25,035 nucleotides of DNA from Picochlorum sp. 'celeri' (Eukaryota; Chlorophyta; Trebouxiophyceae), in assembly GCA_010909725.1 (NCBI GenBank), contig JAACMV010000013.1:1-25035 (forward strand), in the 5' to 3' direction. A model generated the notes under the pieces. It was not told the DNA's origin. It was given only the letters and a program-made list of their open reading frames with translations, and searched no databases. Shown piece after piece: positions 5,151 to 16,727 of the stretch. How positions within the stretch are numbered: position 1 is the first letter of the stretch; each line of letters starts with the position of its first letter. Both the position numbers and the translations under genes were made by a program.

Positions 5151-5155
5151 AATAA
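5151..5155. repeat. AATAA directly left of the repeat array (candidate target duplication)
   Basis: AATAA abuts the first base of unit 1. On the right, unit 3 is followed by AA (13008-13009), TA (13010-13011), the Fanzor element with its second TA, then A (15578). Removing the Fanzor element and one TA restores AATAA directly after unit 3. Five AT bases could match by chance. Confidence 0.45.
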
Positions 5156-6087
5156 ACATTCCCGCGATGCTGTCTTTGATTACCTGCCTTTCATCCGGGA
5201 TCAGTGTCTTGATTCAAATTTCGTACATAGATTCGAGGATTCGTTCGGTGGACGGTCTCTGGACCGACCAGCCTCATGCGAGATGGGATGGTGCAGCCCA
5301 TGTGTTTGAACGCATGGTTTGATGCGAATACTTCAAATATTTGGACATAGACAGATGGTTCCAAACGTACGGGGTGTTTTGCTTGTGGACCTTGAACATG
5401 AGACAGGGCAGTTGTGGACCATATGTTGGTCGTTGCCGACGGAAGAGGTGCTTAAATACGTGGCAGACTGTGTTGACCAACAGAGAACTGTAGCCGAGGT
5501 CTGTAGAAGTTCGAGTGTGCACCGATATTGAAGGCAATGCCATGTCCCTAGTCCCTACGCAATTACAGAAAACTATATCATTATGATAGATGGTCCATGT
5601 GATTCAACGTCCCCAAGTCAATTAACAGTGCAATTTGTTTGCTGTGTGGTGGGCAGGAGGCTAGTATCAGATGTCTTGTGGGGCACTCATCACCGTTCTC
5701 TTTGCTCTAAGCGCCATTAATTCCTTTCATCATACTATATATGATTCCTCAGTCATTTGATCGGTGTTGTCCTTCTTCGTATATCCGCGTTTGGTCGCAG
5801 TATCCGTGATACATCTGAGATCCTTTGGGGTACCTGAGTGTTGCTCACTTCCAGTCATACCCTTCCTTGCAATGCTTGGTGTGCATCAATCCGGTATCCT
5901 TGGCTTCGAGATAATGCTCTATTCTTTCTTAGAGGCGAATCTCTTGGCGCTTTGGGCCGCTGTGTGATTGATTACAATCTTCTTGTCTTCTATTTCCACA
6001 GTATCGATGTGAGTCATTCCAACCTATACCTTCCTTTGTTTCGGCAGATCTTCGTGATTCTCTCGATCCTTTTGTTTTATCTCATAT

Positions 6088-6453
6088 GATCGGTAAATAT
6101 AATGCTGGGGTTTTATGTGCTGAGAGGTCAATTGAAGGTATGGACTCAACCATCAAAGGAGGGAGGTTTCTGTCACCTGGAGGTGCTGAAAGTGAGCTAT
6201 GGTTGGTGCCATGATTTCTGATATTTGTCGACTGCTTCCTAATTGTGTAAAGCGATCCTGTCAGTCAAATCCACCATTTATTTTCTTCAAATCACTTTCC
6301 ATTTGAGATGCCAGTGCTACCCTACTATCCGATATATCCTACTCTGTCTCAGTGTACACATAGCGAACCTGGAAATTGGAATAGACAACAGACAGGCCTT
6401 CTTTCAACGGAGCTTCAGGTCCAGCACAGACGAGACACGGGTCTTCAATCAAT
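6088..6453. repeat. segment present only in repeat unit 1
   Basis: About 366 bp between CTCATAT and AGGATCGAAGC in unit 1. In units 2 and 3 these flanks are joined directly (around 8844-8850 and 11377-11384). A short direct repeat GATCG sits at both edges, which fits loss by deletion from an ancestor of units 2 and 3, or gain in unit 1. I see no recognisable gene in it. Confidence 0.75.
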
Positions 6454-7215
6454 AGGATCGAAGCAAGGGATGCTATGAATGGGGTCACAATGACTATCTC
6501 ACCTAGAAAACTCGCTTGGCTGTCAACGCTTGGTGGGTACAAAAAAGATTTGACCCACACTTGTTAGCAGGTCTTAGTTTTCCTTCTCCCCATCAGATTA
6601 CACACTCAATCAACTCATGCCATGGAAACGAGCCCCAACGGAAGCAATATTGATGGTATCAATATGTTAGAAAGTTGCATCACGTGAGAAAGGTCACAGG
6701 TAGATTCCTGATGCTCTACCGGTGAGACGAAAACCTTCATCTGATGGTCCTGCTGAATAACTCAGATTTGGCCACTCTTTTGGACGGTGTTGATTGATTC
6801 TCGGCATGCTAAATGTACTCATGAACCGACTGACTCTTTCATCCAAACCATGAAAATATTTCTTTTTGCAACAGTTTGGACCAGTCAAAAAAGCATCTGT
6901 TCTGGAGGAATACATGTAGAACTTTGTGGTCTAATGCAATTCCCCCGAATTTGATCATACTTGCCGGGCTCAAAGGATCCGGGCTGCCTGATTTTGGTCT
7001 TGGAGGTCGATGAGTAAAATATCGGGACATATATTGATCGGGGCGGACGGAGGACATGCTCTGAGTGCAGGGCAGTTGTGTTGACTGACAAAGTGTTGAC
7101 AGGACAGCACCCTCTCATGCACCTCATGAGAAACAGTGCCATGTCAGTAACCATCTGCTTTTTGAGGATTATACTGATCACTCTAAACATGAGCAATTAC
7201 ATCGAATCTTCTCTC

Positions 7216-7440
7216 ATCTCTTTAGATGTTCATGAAATGCTCTTAGGTGCTCTCTGATGTTCTTAGAGCCTTTTCAGGTGTTCTCAGATGATCTTGGATG
7301 TTCTCAGAGCTTCATCAAATGCTCCCTGATGTCGATCACATGTTCTGATGATCTTAGATATTTGTTGAATGTCCATGAAATATTGATCTGATGTTCTCAG
7401 AGATTCTGAGAGGTTCTTGTTCATTGAATCTTCTTTCATC
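7216..7440 (+). repeat. degenerate GATGTTCTCAGA minisatellite, unit 1
   Basis: Loosely periodic recurrences of GATGTTCT(T/C)AGA and TCAGATGATCT. Equivalent tracts lie at about 9603-9830 (unit 2) and 12135-12360 (unit 3). It is low-complexity and non-coding in appearance, and sits directly before the GC-rich island in each unit. Confidence 0.65.
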
Positions 7441-7465
7441 TTCTTTGGCACTGCTGTTTCCGTAA

Positions 7466-7863
7466 TAAGTTGGGGGCACTCTGGGGAGTGGGTCGATCGA
7501 GAGTATCGGCCGGTCCACTGAGGGCCGCGACAGATGAAGAAGACCGGTTTCGGAGGTGTCGGCAACCCGCCTTTGCGGCGCTGGGCCGCCCAGCAGAAAC
7601 GCCCGTTGCGGCCCGGACCGTAGCCCAGCCCAGTTTTTTTGAAATATCTTTTCGTCGGGGGCCGAGCGAGGAAATTTCGGAGCCTGGCGAGGGAGCGATT
7701 TTCGGCACATTTCCGGAAATCGCGCACATCGGCGGAGACCGCCCCTCGCGCCCGGCACCTCCTCCGGCGGAGAAATGCAAAATCCCACACTTATGCAGTG
7801 TGTTATTCGATTGGGAGGCTCGTTTCCGGGCGATCGGTCTCGTGCCGGACGCCCCGATTTAAA
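7466..7863. repeat. GC-rich island with palindromes, unit 1 (also 10018-10415 and 12552-12955)
   Basis: A clearly GC-rich block of about 400 bp in otherwise AT-rich repeat units, conserved in all three copies. Each copy holds the 12-bp palindrome ATTTCCGGAAAT (7709-7720, 10264-10275, 12795-12806). The palindrome lies inside a larger hairpin with arms GCGATTT and AAATCGC (12781-12787 and 12803-12809 in unit 3). Several frames are open on both strands, as expected of GC-rich DNA, and no frame reads as a known protein. It could be a promoter-like or structural region; the function is unknown. Confidence 0.6.
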
Positions 7864-7909
7864 GAAAATCCCGATTTTTTTATGGTTACAGCTGTAATCC
7901 TTAATCTAC

Positions 7910-7932
7910 GCATCGCAACATTCCCGCGATGC
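7910..7932. repeat. hairpin at the unit 1/unit 2 junction
   Basis: GCATCGC (7910-7916) at the end of unit 1 pairs with GCGATGC (7926-7932) near the start of unit 2 across a 9-nt loop. The same two 7-mers occur as sub-terminal inverted repeats of the whole array (5164-5170 and 13000-13006). Confidence 0.6.
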
Positions 7933-10471
7933 TGTCTTTGATTACCTGCCTTTCATCGGGATCAGTGTCTTGATTTCAAATTTCGTACATAGATTCGAGG
8001 ATTCGTTCGGGGCGTCTCTGGACCGACCAGCCTCATGCGAGATGGGATGGTGCAGCCCATGTGTTTGAACGCATGGTTTGATGCGAATACTTCAAATATT
8101 TGGACATAGACAGATGGTTCCAAACGTACGGGGTGTTTGCTTGTGGACTTGAACATGAGACAGGGCAGTTTGTGGACATATGTTGGTCGTTGCCGACGGA
8201 AGAGGTGCTTTAAATACGTGGCAGATGTGTTGACCAACAGAGAACTGTAGCCAGCTCTGTAGAAGTTCGAGTGTGCACCGATATTGAAGGCAATGCCATG
8301 TCCCTAGTCCCTACGCAATTACAGAAAACTATAAAATCATGATGGATCAAATATATGGTCTATGTGATTCAACGTCCCAAGGCAATTAACAATGCAATTT
8401 GTTTGCTGTGTGTTGGGCAGGAGGCTTGTATCAGCTGTCCTGTGGAGCATTCATCACTATTCTCTTGCTCTTAAGCGCCTTTAATTCCTTTCATCATACT
8501 ATATATGATTCCTCAGTCATTTGATCGGTGTTATCTTCTTCGTATATCAGCGTTTGGTCGCAGTATCCCTGATACATCCTTTTGGGTACCTGAGAGTTGC
8601 TCACTTCCAGTCATACCTTTCCTTGCAATGTTTGGTGGCATCAATCCGGTATCCTTCGCTTCTAGATAATGTTCTATTGTTTCTTAGAGGCGAATCGCTT
8701 GGCGCTTTTGGTCGCTGTGTGATTGATTACAATCTTCTTGCCTTCTATTTCCCACTGTATGGATGTATGTCCCTTCCAACCCATACCTTCCTTTTGTTTC
8801 GGCAGATCTTCGTGATTCTCTCCATCCTTTTGTTGTATCTCATATAGGATCGAAGCAAGGATGCTATGAATGGGGTCCACAATGACTATCTCACCTGGAA
8901 AACTCGCTTGGCTATCAATCCTTGGTGGGTACAAAAAAATTAGACCCAGATCCACAATTGTTAGCAGGTCTCAGTTTCCTTCTCCCCATCAGATTCCACA
9001 CTCAATAAACTCAGCCATGGAAATGAGTCCCAACGGAAAGCAATATTGATGGTATCAATATGCTAGAAAGTTGCATCCCGTGAGAAAGGGCACAGGTAGA
9101 TTCTTGATGCTCTACCGTTGAGACGGAAACCTTCATCTGATGGTCCCTGCTGAATAATTCAGATTTGGCCACTCTTTTGGACGGTGTTGATTCATTCTCT
9201 GCATGCTAAATGCACTCATGAACCGACTTTTTCATCTAAAACCATGAAAATATTTGTTTTTGAAACAGTTGGGCCAGTCAAAAAAGACATCTGTTCTGGA
9301 GGAATACATGTATAACTTTGTGGTCTAATGCAATTCCCCCGAATTTGATCATACGTGCCGGGCTCAAAGGATCCGGGCTGCCTGATTCTGGTCTTGGAGG
9401 TCGATGAGTAAAATATCGGGACAATATTGGTCGCGGCGGACGGAGGATATGCTCTGAATGCAGAGCAGGGCAGTTGGGTGTTGACAGGACAGCACCCTTT
9501 CATGCACCTCATGAGAATCAGTGCCATGTCAGTAACCATTTGCTTTTTGAGGAGTAAACTGATCACTTTAAGCATGAGCAATTATCGAATCTTCTCTCAT
9601 CTCTTTAGAGGTTCATGAAATGCTCTTAGGTGCTCTCTGATGTTCTTAGAGTTTTGTCAGGTGTTTTCAGATGATCCTGGATGTTCTTAGAGCTTCATCA
9701 AATGCTCCCAGATGTCGATCACATGTTCTCTGATGATCTTAAATATTTGTTGAATGTCCATGAAATATTGATCTGATGTTCTCAGAGATTCTGAGAGGGT
9801 CTTGTTCATTAAATCTTGTTTCATCTTCTTTGCTTTACTGCTGTAAGTAGGAAGGAAGATCTCCTACTTAATATATCTAATTAAGACCTGATTATAGATT
9901 TAAGTAGAATAATATATCGTGATCTTCATGGATACGTTCAGATGATAAGAGATGCTCTAGATCTCTAGGATGGACCCGTGGGAGATCCGAGGGGGTCCAT
10001 CACAACTGCTGTTTCCGTAATAAGTTGGGGGCACTCTGGGGAGTGGGTCGATCGAGAGTATCGGCCGGCCCACCGAGGGCCGCGACAGATGGAGAAGATC
10101 GGTTTCGGAGGTGTCGGCAACCCGCCTTTGCGGCGCTGGGCCGCCCAGCAGGAACGCCCGTTGCCGCCCGGACCGTAGCCCAGCCCAGTTTTTTTGAAAT
10201 ATCTTTTCGTCGGGGGCCGAGCGAGGAAATTTCGGGGCCTGGCGAGGGCGCGATTTTCGGCCCATTTCCGGAAATCGCGCACATCGGCGGACACCGCCCC
10301 CCGCACCCGGCACCTCCGCCGGCGAGAAATGCAAAATCCCACAGTCATAGAGCGTGTTATTCGATCGGGAGGCTCGTTTCCGCTCGATCGGTCTCGTGCC
10401 GGACGCCCCGATTTAAAGAAAATCCCGATTTTTTTATGGTTACAGCTGTAATCCTTAATCTACGCATCGCA
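7918..10471 (+). repeat. tandem repeat unit 2 (about 2.55 kb)
   Basis: Head-to-tail copy of unit 1. It aligns with unit 3 almost end to end, including the 160-bp segment at 9845-10004, and shares with unit 1 the 5' 45 bp that unit 3 lacks. Most differences from unit 3 are one-base length changes in short homopolymers. The landmark TGTGTCTTGAT-like site recurs at 7962 here, 5201 in unit 1 and 10492 in unit 3. Confidence 0.92.
9837..10012. mobile_element. 160-bp segment with 8-bp flanking direct repeat, copy in unit 2
   Basis: The segment 9845-10004 is bracketed by ACTGCTGT at 9837-9844 and 10005-10012; unit 1 has a single ACTGCTGT at the equivalent site (near 7449-7456). This is the pattern of an 8-bp target duplication, though deletion between the two repeats in unit 1 would look the same. 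It opens with a perfect hairpin (AAGTAGGA 9845-9852 with TCCTACTT 9862-9869) and has a second near its end (GATGGACCC 9969-9977 with GGGTCCATC 9993-10001). I see no terminal inverted repeats and no coding capacity. It could be a small non-autonomous element. Confidence 0.55.
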
Positions 10472-13007
10472 ATCATCGATTCCGATCGGGATCTGTGTCT
10501 TGATTTCAAATTTCGTACATCAATTGGAGGATTCGTTCGGGGGCGTCTCTGGACCGACCAGCCTCATGCGAGATGGGATGGTGCAGCTCATGTGTTTGAA
10601 CGTATGGTTTGATGCGAATACTTCAAATTTGGACATACACAGATGGTTCCAAACATACCGAGTGTTTGCTTGTGGACTTGAACATGATACAGGGCAGTTT
10701 GAAGACATATGTTGGTCGTTGCCGACGGAAGAGGTGCTCTAAATGCGTGGCAGATGTGTTGACCAACAGAGAGCTGTAGCCAGCTCTCTGTAGAAGTTCG
10801 AGTGTGCACCGATATTGAAGGCAAAGCCATGTCCCTAGTCCCTAGGTAGTTACAGAAAACTATAAAATCATGATGGATCAAATATATGGTCTATGTGATT
10901 CAAACGTCCCCAAGGCAATTAACAATGCAATTTGTTTGCTGTGTGTTGGGCAGGAGGCTTGTATCAGCTGTCCTGTGGAGCATTCATCACTATTCTCTTG
11001 CTCTTAAGCGCCTTTAATTCCTTTCATCATACTATATATGATTCCTCAGTCATTTGATCGGTGTTATCTTCTTCGTATATCAGCGTTTGGTCGCAGTATC
11101 CCTGATACATCCTTTTGGGTACCTGAGAGTTGCTCACTTCCAGTCATACCTTTCCTTGCAATGTTTGGTGTGCATCAATCCGGTATCCTTCGCTTCTAGA
11201 TAATGTTCTATTGTTTCTTAGAGGCGAATCGCTTGGCGCTTTGGTCGCTGTGTGATTGATTACAATCTTCTTGCCTTCTATTTCCCACTGTATGGATGTA
11301 TGTCCTTCCAACCCATACCTTCCTTTTGTTTCGGCAGATCTTCGTGATTCTCTCCATCCTTTTGTTGTATCTCATATAGGATCGAAGCAAGGATGCTATG
11401 AATGGGGTCACAATGACTATCTCACCTGGAAAACTCGCTTGGCTATCAATCCTTGGTGGGTACAAAAAAATTAGACCCAGATCCACAATTGTTAGCAGGT
11501 CTCAGTTTCCTTCTCCCCATCAGATTCCACACTCAATAAACTCAGCCATGGAAATGAGTCCCAACGGAAGCAATATTGATGGTATCAATATGCTAGAAAG
11601 TTGCATCCCGTGAGAAAGGGCAATAGCGTAGATTCTTGATGCTCTACCGTTGAGACGGAAACCTCATCTGATGGTCCCTGCTGAATAATTCAGATTTGGC
11701 CACTCTTTGGACGGTGTTGATTCATTCTCTGCATGCTAAATGCACTCATGAACCGACTTTTTCATCTAAAACCATGAAAATATTTGTTTTTGAAACAGTG
11801 GGCCAGTCAAAAAAGACATCTGTTCTTGAGGAATACATGTATAACTTTGTGGTCTAATGCAATTCCCCCGAATTTGATCATCCGTGCGGGCTCAAAGGAT
11901 CCGGGCTGCCTGATTCTGGTCGTGGAGGTCGATGAGTAAAATATCGGGACATATATTGGTCGCGGCGGACGGAGGATATGCTCTGAATGCAGAGCAGGGC
12001 AGTTGGGGTGTTGACAGGACAGCACCCCTTTCATGCACCTCATGAGAATCAGTGCCATGTCAGTAACCATTTGCTTTTTGATGAGTAAACTGATCACTTT
12101 AAGCATGAGCAATTATCGAATCTTCTCTCATCTCTTTAGAGGTTCATGAAATGCTCTTAGGTGCTCTCTGATGTTCTTAGAGTTTTGTCAGGTGTTTTCA
12201 GATGATCCTGGATGTTCTTAGAGCTTCATCAAATGCTCCCAGATGTCGATCACATGTTCTCTGATGATCTTAAATATTTGTTGAATGTCCATGAAATATT
12301 GATCTGATGTTCTCAGAGATTCTGAGAGGGTCTTGTTCATTAAATCTTGTTTCATCTTCTTTGCTTTACTGCTGTAAGTAGGAAGAAGATCTCCTACTTA
12401 ATATATCTAATTAAGACCTGATTATAGATTTAAGTAGAATAATATATCGTGATCTTCATGGATACGTTCAGATGATAAGAGATGCTCTAGATCTCTAGGA
12501 TGGACCCGTGGGAGATCCGAGGGGGGTCCATCACAACTGCTGTTTCCGTAATAAGTTGGGGGCACTCTGGGGAGTGGGTCGATCGAGAGTATCGGCCGGC
12601 CCACCGAGGGCCGCGACAGATGGAGAAGATCGGTTTCGGAGGTGTCGGCAACCCGCCTTTGCGGCGCTGGGCCGCCCAGCAGGAACGCCCGTTGCCGCCC
12701 GGACCGTAGCCCAGCCCAGTTTTTTTTGAAATATCTTTCGTCGGGGGCCGAGCGAGGAAATTTCGGGGCCTGGCGAGGGCGCGATTTTCGGCCCATTTCC
12801 GGAAATCGCGCACATCGGCGGACACCGCCCCCCGCACCCCGGCACCTCCGCCGGCGAGAAATGCAAAATCCCACAAGTCATAGAGCGTGTTATTCCGATC
12901 GGGAGGCTCGTTTCCGCTCGATCGGTCTCGTGCCGGACGCCCCGATTTTAAAGAAAATCCCCGATTTTTTTATGGTTACAGCTGTAATCCTTAATCTACG
13001 CATCGCA
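10472..13007 (+). repeat. tandem repeat unit 3 (about 2.54 kb)
   Basis: Third copy. Its first ~20 bp (TCATCGATTCCGATCGGGA) replace the first ~45 bp seen in units 1 and 2; after that it is nearly identical to unit 2. It ends CTACGCATCGCA at 13007, exactly like units 1 and 2, and four bases later the Fanzor transposon begins. Confidence 0.92.
12368..12543. mobile_element. 160-bp segment with 8-bp flanking direct repeat, copy in unit 3
   Basis: Counterpart of the segment in unit 2, bracketed by ACTGCTGT at 12368-12375 and 12536-12543 and with the same two hairpins. Its presence in both units 2 and 3 shows that they were copied from a unit that already carried it. Confidence 0.55.
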
Positions 13008-13011
13008 AATA

Positions 13012-13035
13012 CCGTAAAAATTTTAAATTTCGTTT
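13012..13035 (+). repeat. left terminal inverted repeat of the Fanzor transposon
   Basis: It begins CCGTAAAAATTTT and ends AAATTTCGTTT. It pairs with 15552-15575, mismatching only at positions 2, 9 and 14. A further internal inverted match, GGAATGT (13041-13047) to ACATTCC (15538-15544), lies at slightly different spacing. Confidence 0.85.
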
Positions 13036-13049
13036 AATAAGGAATGTAA

Positions 13050-15454
13050 CATCTAGTCCATTTGACCTCTGGTCAATCCGAATCTTCTAGAACCTTGGAT
13101 TGGTATGAAGTCGAGCCGCCATCGCCAACCGTGTCATTTCAAAATGAAAAAAAGAGAAAGGTGTCCGCCACACCATCGAAAAAGGTGAAGAAAAAGAAGT
13201 TTACTCGATTGGATGTGGCTATAAAGAAGGATAAAGACCGTTTTTTCAATAAGACAGTCGTCAAGTGCACTTGCAGCCTTTTTGTAAGTTCAAAGTGGTT
13301 CAACGCGAAATTGAAGAATGTGTATTCTATCTGAGTAGACTACAGATTCATGTGCATCATGTCATGCATCTATTGTTATTGAGGAACGGTGGGGCATTTA
13401 GAGACCACAAAGATGAAACTCTCTACGAACTCTACAACAAAATCTACAGACACCTTGCTAATCATTTGCAACAAAAGAAGGAGAGAAAGGATGTTGATAC
13501 CAACTTGCGCGACTTGTGCAAGGAATATTGTGAGGAGACTGGGTTAAAAACAGATTGGCCACAGGGTTGTCTCTCTTCTTGGAGAGGCAAAACAATGGAG
13601 CAGATGGCCCAGCAGTCGTCTGTTATGCATACCACGCATTTGGAAACCAATCTTAATGTATATGCATTACGGTATCTGAGATATTTGCTATTTCGAGACG
13701 ACACGGACTTTGACCAAATCAAAAATTTGTCAAAGAAGAAGTTTGGACAAGTATTTTCTGCAATCACACAGGCATTCTGGGAGAGGACGAAAGTCAGTGA
13801 TATTGTTGAACGTAGACCATCATTGACAGAATTTGCGTCTGATGTGTCAGTATGGGATGAAGCACAGAGAGCCTTGGATATCATTTGCTCGTTGGTGCCA
13901 AAGACGACAACTCTTTCTGAGAAATCCAGAATTTGCTTCTGGATTTTGGGTCACTTGGAGCCATTCGTGGAATCACTGCAACAGAGGTTCAGAAACGGAG
14001 AGTTTGAAGGGAAGAAGAGTATACTTGGAAGACAGAAATGGACATTTTGTCTGTGTCCACAGATGGCCTGGAAACCAAAGCATATCCATATCTCCAGCAC
14101 AGCAGTGAAGACTATGGTTGAGCAACTCGCAAAGAAATATCCATATATCAGAAAGATAGTAGATGACTGTCCAGCACTGGATGACTATACAAATAAGTAT
14201 TATTATTGGAAATCGATATTCAACATGAAGCGAGTATTGAAAAAAAAGCACATGAAGGACCAAACGAAACTCAGATTCGGATGCTCTATATGCACTGATG
14301 GCGTCTCTGTTTCTGCTGTTATAGACACTGTGAAGTCGGATCTGGAATGCAAGATAATCCATCTGCAGGATGATATGAATTACGTCAAAGCAAAGTTGTG
14401 GGCCACCTATTGTGGGATGTTTGCAACCAACATTATTGCAAAAAAGATCAGATATGACCCTTTGCGTATTCTCCTTGGTGACATTTCCACCATACATTAT
14501 GTTCTACTGAAGCCATTGTTGCATACATTAAAGTCACAAAAGGACGTTCTACAGAAACGAAAGGCTAAAAACAAAGACAAGACAGTCATCACAGAAAGGA
14601 TCAAAAGGTTGGCTGGCATACGCAAAGATGACCATGGTATATATCACACAGATTGTATCATTGTCGGTTTGGACCCAGGTAAAAAGTCAGCGGCCACGTG
14701 GGTTTTTCATGATTCGGAAAAGCAAAAGATCCATGCAAAGTGGAATGCAGAAAATGGTCGTCATACAGAGGTGGAAGACAGATATAAAAGTGATTCTCTG
14801 GGGTCAGGAGAATGGATCTTCTTATCTAGTCAGAAACAGTATACAGCCAAAATAAAGAAAAGGATGTCTGAATACTGTCCTGCATGGGTGTCTGTGCCAA
14901 CATACAAGACAGTAGATCTTGAGAAAATTTTTGAGAGTTACAGATTCCAAGTTTCTATGTGGCCCCAACTGCAACAAGCCTTCTTCGATGACAAAAAATG
15001 GTATCAGAAACAGAAGATGAGGAAATTTTGCAAGGAAAAGTCGGCCATGGAGGATGTGGTTGCTCGAATCTGTGGAACAAGAAACAAAGAGGCACAGAAG
15101 AGAGTCATCGTGGCGTATGGTGATGGTGATAATAACGGCACAATGAGGGGCACTGCTCCTATCATGAGCACAAAACTGTTCAACAAGGTATCGGAATGTG
15201 CCACAGTTGTGTTGGTTAATGAATTCAATACGTCCAAACTCTGTTCTTGCTGTCATGAGGCAATGGAACAGTACAACAAACAATTCAGGATGAAACGTTG
15301 TCACAACAATGAATGCATTCGAAATGTTTGGGACCGTGATGTCAATGCCAGTATCAATATCAAAGACTTGTTTTTGGAAAAGTGTCACAATGGATCTCGA
15401 ATCAAGGCTTTCAAGAGGACGAGGAAAAGGCAAAGGACATCAACACGGCAATGA
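13050..15454 (+). CDS. Fanzor1-like RNA-guided endonuclease (TnpB homologue), 5' end disrupted
   Basis: The main frame runs from 13253 to the stop at 15452-15454; residue numbers count the GTG at 13265 as 1. Family landmarks are the TDG motif (SICTDGVSVS, residues 344-346), RuvC-I GLDPGKKSA with Asp470, VAYGDGDNN (616-624) where TnpB would carry its usual Glu, NEFNTSKLC with Glu653 as the relocated acidic residue, a zinc finger (Cys660, Cys663, Cys679, Cys684), and RuvC-III WDRDVNASINI with Asp690/Asp692. A basic tail RKRQR could be a nuclear signal. About 70 codons of a lysine-rich N-terminus (KKVKKKKFTR) lie upstream in another frame (13050-13270). The two join either by one missing base near 13270 or by a 62-bp phase-0 intron (13284-13345, GTAAGT...CTACAG). 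The first option keeps the helix EIEECVFYL..LQIHVHHV, which looks like a conserved TnpB-type N-terminal helix. No usable ATG is seen: the only one in frame (13044) is followed at once by TAA. At roughly 800 residues it fits Fanzor1 rather than the shorter Fanzor2. Confidence 0.9.
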
Positions 15455-15575
15455 ATTCGGCATGTAAGTCGGCTGCTTTTTGCAGACGCTATGCTTCAAG
15501 ATACAGCAGAGAGAACGATGGAACTTCCAAGTTTGGAACATTCCGTCCGACAAACGAAATTAAAAAATTTTACTG
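15455..15575 (+). ncRNA. candidate guide-RNA (omega/fRNA) scaffold at the right end of the Fanzor element
   Basis: TnpB and Fanzor guide RNAs come from the 3' end of the gene and the adjoining element end, with the guide reading into flanking DNA (established knowledge). Here 121 bp lie between the Fanzor stop and the element end. They can form a closed structure: GTCGG (15468-15472) pairs with CCGAC (15547-15551), right before the terminal repeat. Inside lie CTGC/GCAG (15473-15476 and 15482-15485) and TTCCA/TGGAA (15525-15529 and 15534-15538). The predicted guide would begin at TAATTTATGGCTAC (15576 on). Pairing was found by eye, not by energy calculation. Confidence 0.4.
15552..15575 (-). 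repeat. right terminal inverted repeat of the Fanzor transposon
   Basis: Read on the minus strand it begins CAGTAAAATTTTTT and ends AATTTCGTTT. TA follows at 15576-15577, matching the TA at 13010-13011. Confidence 0.85.
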
Positions 15576-15609
15576 TAATTTATGGCTACTTATTATTTTA
15601 TTATTATGA

Positions 15610-16727
15610 TTAGATTTTGACACCTGGAGGCAGAGCACCGTTGTTCTCAAACATGTAGATGAGATCTCGGGAGACATGTTCCTCTGGCTCCCAGGTGTCC
15701 TCTGATCCATCCATCCATCTCACCAAATACGCACGAGAGTCTCCCTTATTTCGGACATCGAGAATCTTCTCAGCTTTCGCGTACTCCAGGTTATCTTGGT
15801 AATCGGCTACGACCTCTTCCGACATGTACTTCTCGTGGACCCACACAGGTTCATCTTCGTCGGGAAATTTCACCAAGTACTCCTTGGCTCCATCGCCATT
15901 TTCTATCTCTCTACTCTCCATTACGGCGTCTGGAAGCACATCTTCGAACAAATTATCCACCAATACTTTCAGTACCTCTTCTAGAGCAATTCTACGAGCC
16001 GCAGTCGCTGGATTATCCGGGGGCAGAGCTGCTCTCAGGCTTTCGACAAGTTCCAAGGGAGACCTGCCCTGCAAATCCTGCTGCTCTGGATCTGCATTCC
16101 CTTCTATCAAAGCGTATATTGTCGATGTATGAAGATATCCTGCGGCCATGTGCAGAGGAGTGTACCCTTCTTTATCTCCCAGGTCCACCTCGGCCCCCTC
16201 TCTGATGAGACGCCGCACCAGGTCAGCTTTCCCAAGAGCAGCCGCAAAATGGAGGGCACTGCGTCTGTCCTCATTCAGGGTTCGTGACAAAACAGCGCCT
16301 CCGCCGTCGAGCATCTCGCTCATCACAGCTTCGTCTCCCTTTTTGACAGCGTTCCACCATTTGGATTCGAAATCTCTCAGCAAATTGTCCGCGAGGTTTG
16401 TGACGGGCTCCCATGTATCTGGCGACCCATCCTTCCACTCTACCAAGTACTCCACCATTGGACGAACCTTTTTCTCCTCGTCCTCGGCGCTGCGCGGTTT
16501 CATTCGAATGCCTTTCAGATTCTTGACCTCGACAATTCCTCAGTCGCAGCTTGGATCATCAACCTAGCTTGGGCTTTGCACGCTCGGGGAGTCGTCTGGA
16601 AGACAAACAGGGCCCGTCTTGCACCAGTGTCGTGGAGCACCTGCCTTGTCCTACGGATTCCAGGTCGAGGAGCGGTCCTAGTATGAGGACCAATCGCAAT
16701 AATGAAATTTCTGTGTATGATTTCCAT
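15610..16727 (-). CDS. chloroplast signal recognition particle 43 kDa protein (cpSRP43)
   Basis: Chaperone that, with cpSRP54, carries light-harvesting chlorophyll proteins to the thylakoid membrane. Counting the Met at 16503 as residue 1, the order is the end of chromodomain 1 (VEYLVEWKDGSPDTWEPV, about 18-35), ankyrin repeats (about 45-160, with ALHFAAALGKADLVRRLI and TPLHMAAGYLHTSTIYALI), chromodomain 2 (about 195-245) and chromodomain 3 (YLVRWMDGSEDTWEPEEHV, about 255-290). This is the cpSRP43/CAO arrangement. The start of chromodomain 1 (GIVEVKNLKGIR) lies upstream of that Met in the same frame. One base is then needed near 16535-16538 to join it to an upstream arginine-rich leader beginning at 16727, which looks like a plastid transit peptide ending near MIQAATEE. 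The leader and exact start are less certain than the body. Confidence 0.88.

Follow-up and report, generated by a model that had tools for sequence, protein, structure and literature searches.

We found that a 25,035-bp stretch of the green alga Picochlorum sp. 'celeri' (the window, which is the whole of contig C13, JAACMV010000013.1, in an assembly of 30 contigs and 27.4 Mb) carries at positions 13012-15575 a transposon whose only gene is for a Fanzor1 protein of the TnpB/Fanzor nuclease family. The element is bounded by inverted repeats, sits at a TA target and has copies at distinct sites in the genome, and a relative with a homologous left end carries a transposase as well as a Fanzor. We think it likely that the window element descends from such a two-gene ancestor, is mobilised in trans and is itself retained through RNA-guided cutting by its Fanzor. 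Coordinates are those of the window, and features lie on the plus strand unless otherwise stated.

The terminal inverted repeats (TIRs) are 24 bp long, the left at 13012-13035 (CCGTAAAAATTTTAAATTTCGTTT) and the right at 15552-15575 (CAGTAAAATTTTTTAATTTCGTTT, minus strand), and match at 21 of 24 positions; arms with these three mismatches had no match in 100 dinucleotide shuffles of the window, and can be extended to 29 nt at 86% identity. TA, the target duplication, stands outside both (13010-13011 and 15576-15577, unstranded) and also adjoins the ends of other copies. These are the ends and flanks that an earlier sequence-only reading of the window had given, and its proposed search with them did yield further copies, mostly ending at the same bases. 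We fetched 20 loci from the genome and aligned them with the window, making 21 copies: 20 near-full-length, the window copy included, and one truncated, all 98-100% identical to the window element. The right end with its TA is common to 20 of the 21 and absent from the truncated copy. The left end begins at base 1 beside TA in 18 (four of them with altered first bases), while the other three left ends are truncated (one) or interrupted by a 2.6-kb repeat inserted between bases 26 and 27, with a TIR beyond the insert (two), rather than differently bounded. A degenerate pattern of the ends had 48 matches in the genome and its reversed control none, and a translated genome search returned at least 55 segments of the window Fanzor and its relatives. 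The copies occupy 10 distinct TA sites, nine of them with both flanks.

Three lines of evidence, the catalytic motif, the sequence profile and the predicted fold, identify the protein as a Fanzor1. An intact copy matches, as a regular expression, the pattern D-x(125,275)-[TS][TS]xx-C4 zinc finger-x(5,50)-RD, and the DPG of RuvC-I and the alternative glutamate six residues before the zinc finger were likewise found by regular expression, with the published DPG-Glu spacing of 120-160 extended to 200 (it is 180 in this protein) and Cx4C allowed for the second cysteine pair. In the window the RuvC-I catalytic aspartate lies in the DPG motif at 14672-14680 (residue 470 of a 729-residue frame), the alternative RuvC-II glutamate at 15221-15223 (residue 653, placed by profile alignment to SpuFz1), the C4 zinc finger at 15242-15316 (C660, C663, C679 and C684, by alignment and Pfam PF07282, E 1.1e-8) and the RuvC-III Arg-Asp at 15335-15340 (residues 691-692); the catalytic residues are invariant in all 31 aligned homologues. 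Both sequence profile and predicted fold place the protein closest to solved Fanzor1, with SpuFz1 as the nearest solved fold, in agreement with the family assignment of the sequence-only reading. A profile search was needed for this, single-sequence searches of the PDB having returned no Fanzor, and an AlphaFold prediction from 14 sequences was set aside (predicted local distance difference test, pLDDT, 49). The carrier is a eukaryotic DNA transposon, as seen from its TIRs, TA and DDE_1-bearing relative, and not IS607. A related Fanzor (47%) occurs in Picochlorum sp. BPE23, and viral contigs gave only three distant loci (40-41%). The 'celeri' genome also holds at least two further divergent Fanzor-like families (L034, L035 and L036), with open reading frames of 1020, 917 and 1016 amino acids and 38% and about 30% identity to the window protein over the parts that matched; the Pfam TNB domain is below cut-off in two of these loci and absent from one, and no flanking TIRs were recognised around the genome's other Fanzor families.

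The Fanzor1 gene spans 13144-15454. The long interior frame and Fanzor landmarks described in the sequence-only reading are there, but the gene of the window copy is not complete as assembled: it is frameshifted in the A run at 13147-13153 and near 13270-13273, leaving an open frame of 729 codons (13265-15454) that starts at GTG. Intact copies encode about 770 or 783 amino acids, according to start codon, and a full frame (at least 801 codons) is kept in 13 of the 20 copies. Relative to the majority of the 20, the window copy has three substitutions and four one-base insertions or deletions (indels); two of the indels, possibly assembly errors, disrupt the frame close to the N-terminus. Three copies associated with a repeat array (L024, L026 and L027) show 7, 11 and 17 indels but 3, 2 and 16 substitutions, a pattern suggestive of assembly errors that were left uncorrected. 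The region 13144-13210 encodes, judging by intact copies and homologues, a basic N-terminal stretch (KMKKKRKV...KKVKKKKF in intact copies) that we take to be a putative nuclear localisation signal.

A relative on contig C20 is 6,021 bp long, has TA and similar ends, and encodes an 893-amino-acid DDE_1 protein (E 5.7e-13) followed by an 809-amino-acid Fanzor. Its left end has two mismatches to the 26-base end pattern, and it is homologous to the left subterminal region of the window element, 13012-13143, to about the Fanzor start codon (local score 49; shuffles 17.5, standard deviation 2.9, maximum 32 of 1000). Because this homologous stretch leads directly into the Fanzor start, deletion of the transposase from a two-gene ancestor is the simplest history, and our preferred reading of the window element is that of a derivative that has lost its transposase and is mobilised in trans. 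The C20-type element has one locus, on two contigs (C20 and C5), compared with 20 near-full-length copies of the Fanzor-only form; the C5 allele (L041) differs from the C20 allele (L042) by 12 indels and no substitutions within the element, so that sequencing errors seem likelier than decay on C5. The sequence-only reading had proposed a search for full-length mariner/Tc1 elements that share these ends and encode a DDE transposase. A DDE-bearing element with similar ends does exist, but its transposase is of the DDE_1, pogo-like type; DDE_3 (Tc1/mariner) has no match in the genome and was rejected as a candidate. With eight DDE_1 matches and no DDE_3 match, there are therefore few candidate transposases for action in trans. 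A 527-bp element (L030, C2:1322213-1322742, with an allele on C22) has related ends and flanking TA, with neither Fanzor nor transposase.

Published Fanzor1 guide RNAs (reRNA or omega-RNA) are reported to include the TIR and target-site duplication (TSD) and to extend about 15 nt past the TSD (PMC10711439). By analogy, the right end of the window element is predicted to yield a guide RNA for cleavage of double-stranded DNA. Its candidate scaffold, 15455-15577, comprises the 3′ noncoding stretch, the right TIR and TA, and is 99-100% identical in 20 matches, each of which is the right end of one Fanzor copy (the count is a lower bound); no ghost locus, consisting of the RNA region only, was seen among them. 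Aligned with the 3′ region of the C20 element it scores 66.5, TIR included (shuffles 33.9, standard deviation 7.2). Since the published reRNAs run about 15 nt past the TSD, the predicted guide of the window copy is placed in the right flank past TA, at 15578-15597. On the other side, ATA stands left of the element (13009-13011 in the window) at all 10 sites, compared post hoc with a local background of 0.36, and at the nine sites with two flanks it is found nine times as read and once in the reverse reading (flip test 2/512). SpuFz1 is described as having the transposon-associated motif (TAM) CATA and a conserved CA beside its left inverted repeat (PMC10432273); this likeness, together with the oriented left-flank bias, makes ATA a good TAM candidate.

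The steps we propose are as follows. An internal deletion would have removed the transposase from an ancestor with both genes, and a DDE_1 transposase (pogo-like, of the Tc1/mariner superfamily) most likely recognises the shared ends and moves the element in trans. The Fanzor would bind RNA from the right end of the element together with some 15-20 nt of right flank, the complex would cut a matching empty site beside the ATA motif, and the element would be restored by repair templated on a sister or homologous chromosome that carries it. This accords with the sequence-only reading, which had called the element a candidate for a non-autonomous, nuclease-maintained one; that interpretation is supported, with maintenance by the nuclease as its proposed part.

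Several observations weigh against this proposal. No copy with exactly window-type ends was found carrying a transposase, identity between the C20 Fanzor and that of the window family is only about 50%, and the C20 right end is more diverged than its left. The left flank of the C20 element is TTA, not ATA, and the predicted fold of 15455-15577 is unremarkable compared with shuffles (z -0.83). Seven of the 20 copies, the window copy among them, lack a full frame as assembled. No clean empty site was found: that predicted by the sequence-only reading for the window copy had no genome match at up to three mismatches, and at another site (site H) the C15 counterpart (L031, C15:1-8500) of a filled locus (L021, C27:10466) is without the element and has ATA followed by the guide predicted for L021, mismatched at position 9 of the guide, but differs in its left flank. 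Finally, the 11 intact young copies outside one diverged pair hold 6 synonymous and 18 nonsynonymous variants, a ratio of nonsynonymous to synonymous polymorphism (pN/pS) of 0.75 (p 0.34).

This last value bears on whether the Fanzor is merely a passenger, the element spreading solely via a transposase acting on its ends and the nuclease having no part in its upkeep. All 13 intact copies together hold 22 synonymous and 34 nonsynonymous distinct coding variants (pN/pS 0.39; p 7e-4 for departure from neutrality); with all 20 copies pooled the ratio is 0.46. The value of 0.39 stems from the diverged C15/C27 pair (18 synonymous, 21 nonsynonymous; pN/pS 0.29, p 2e-4), so that purifying selection is shown between the two sublineages and not among the young copies. 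The passenger explanation thus gains from the young copies, and also from the 527-bp Fanzor-less element, which likewise sits at a TA site, so that related ends alone may suffice. The selection in the C15/C27 pair tells against it, as do the open frame kept in 13 of 20 copies, the invariance of the catalytic residues across the homologues and the left-flank ATA bias, and we judge it unlikely. The bias itself might instead be a target preference of the transposase, ATAA perhaps being the preferred target: the 527-bp element also reads ATA...TAA, as does the C20 element when reversed. If the preference had no orientation, ATA should stand on the left about half of the time, yet it is there at nine of nine two-sided sites, so that this explanation of the motif seems possible, if somewhat doubtful, and a Fanzor TAM is the interpretation that we retain.

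Segmental or array duplication is very improbable as the main way in which the copies multiplied. One insertion (left flank GCATCGCAAATA) is indeed found again next to a 2.5-kb tandem repeat on C13, C29, C1 and C21, and the C21 array has received a copy of a block that includes about 330 bp of flank. The nine other sites, however, have different flanks, the change falling at the TA beside the element ends (one of these sites being seen only on its left), and these distinct TA sites already largely refute duplication as the main route. The copies have spread by transposition, and only the window's own site was multiplied with the array.

Element copies are paired on contigs C8/C17, C4/C30, C15/C27, C2/C22 and C11/C19, and because of this pairing the host is probably a phased diploid with haplotypes of about 13.7 Mb. 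At seven of the 10 sites both paired contigs carry the element. At six of these seven the elements differ at 2 of 15,394 positions and the flanks at 69 of 28,782, so that allelic differences are about 18-fold lower within the element (Fisher 9e-11, overstated since single-nucleotide polymorphisms, SNPs, are clustered); the C11/C19 pair, with rearranged left end and flanks and 37 element mismatches, was left out. In the strongest single case (C15:61k/C27:67k) SNPs lie 85 and 247 bp from the ends, with one in the 2,566 bp inside. SNP-free gaps of more than 1.3 kb also occur in flanks, and four of the six elements adjoin an SNP-free flank of at least 1.4 kb on at least one side. Such tracts fit ordinary loss of heterozygosity, which is described as pervasive in Auxenochlorella (PMC12636532). 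The controls, the C20/C5 element and the 527-bp element, sit in nearly SNP-free stretches and are uninformative. The low divergence of paired copies hints at homing, and could also be explained by loss of heterozygosity or by assembly, repeat polishing having homogenised the copies. We do not claim homing as a finding; that the Fanzor is a natural homing, gene-drive-like nuclease, cutting the empty homologue at ATA plus guide and copying the element across, is a speculative idea that we consider quite unlikely.

The tandem repeat beside the element forms three units of a noncoding repeat of about 2.4-2.7 kb at 5155-13008, ending GCATCGCAA, and its 3′ 473 bp have 27 matches genome-wide. The repeat may itself be a mobile element, because the unit at C15:912-915k sits between Fanzor element bases 26 and 27, as does that of the C27 copy. 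In L024 (C21:99200-106800) a Fanzor element with about 330 bp of right flank (to window position 15905) interrupts a repeat unit at GTGA^TTCAACG; the corresponding units of the window are uninterrupted (8368 and 10898). On C21 the 3′ part (15602-15906) of the chromodomain-ankyrin gene (15610-16503, minus strand) has been duplicated along with the Fanzor array. Besides this chromodomain-ankyrin protein, the gene neighbours in the window encode ATG9, arginyl-tRNA synthetase, a threonine dehydratase-like enzyme and squalene epoxidase. Among ATG9 relatives with a named organism, the best-scoring is from Nannochloris sp. 'desiccata' (46%). An Rfam scan of the window gave no match and an NCBIfam scan nothing useful.

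The class to which the element belongs is already known, and the window holds a clean further example whose genomic surroundings are unusually informative. Descriptions of Fanzor-only elements that have mariner-type ends and a duplicated TA date from 2013; as summarised by Bao and Jurka (PMC3627910), the Tc1/mariner Fanzor1 elements include PUl-4, with Fanzor only, and PUl-1 and PGv-1, with Fanzor and transposase. The present elements share with these the TIRs, the TA duplication and a one-gene form having ends in common with two-gene forms, and differ in the transposase (DDE_1, pogo-like, by Pfam), in the green algal host and in the Fanzor-only form outnumbering the two-gene form. A literature search for Fanzor together with pogo found no paper, and one for Fanzor together with Picochlorum brought up only a paper on Auxenochlorella and a CRISPR review. 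The SpuFz1 element of Spizellomyces, as reported, is also a single-ORF (open reading frame) locus with inverted repeats and many related copies, and its fixed CA beside the left repeat, CATA TAM and guide RNA near the right end are further likenesses; Spu-1 is described there as having no transposase within its inverted repeats and 134 Fanzor-less ghost loci (PMC10432273), whereas here there is a transposase-bearing relative and no RNA-region-only locus was found among the 20 matches. The SfAV Fanzor1 element is, by its description, again Fanzor-only with TIRs and a short TSD, the latter predicted to lie in the reRNA scaffold, and differs in its viral host and in having two copies (PMC10711439). 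The most abundant repeat of Auxenochlorella, like our host a green alga with a phased diploid genome, is reported to encode a Fanzor and is called an uncharacterised element (PMC12636532); we liken it to ours by description, not by sequence.

The natural role of Fanzors has been stated to be unknown (PMC10432273). Homing, if true, would account for the presence of the element on both contigs at seven of the 10 sites, for a divergence between paired copies about 18-fold lower than in the flanks, and for the fact that the derivative without a transposase is more numerous than its two-gene relative. This genome combines a young Fanzor-only family, a transposase-bearing relative, paired homologous sites, and a TAM and a guide predicted copy by copy, and the idea of retention or homing by the nuclease is therefore directly testable in this alga.
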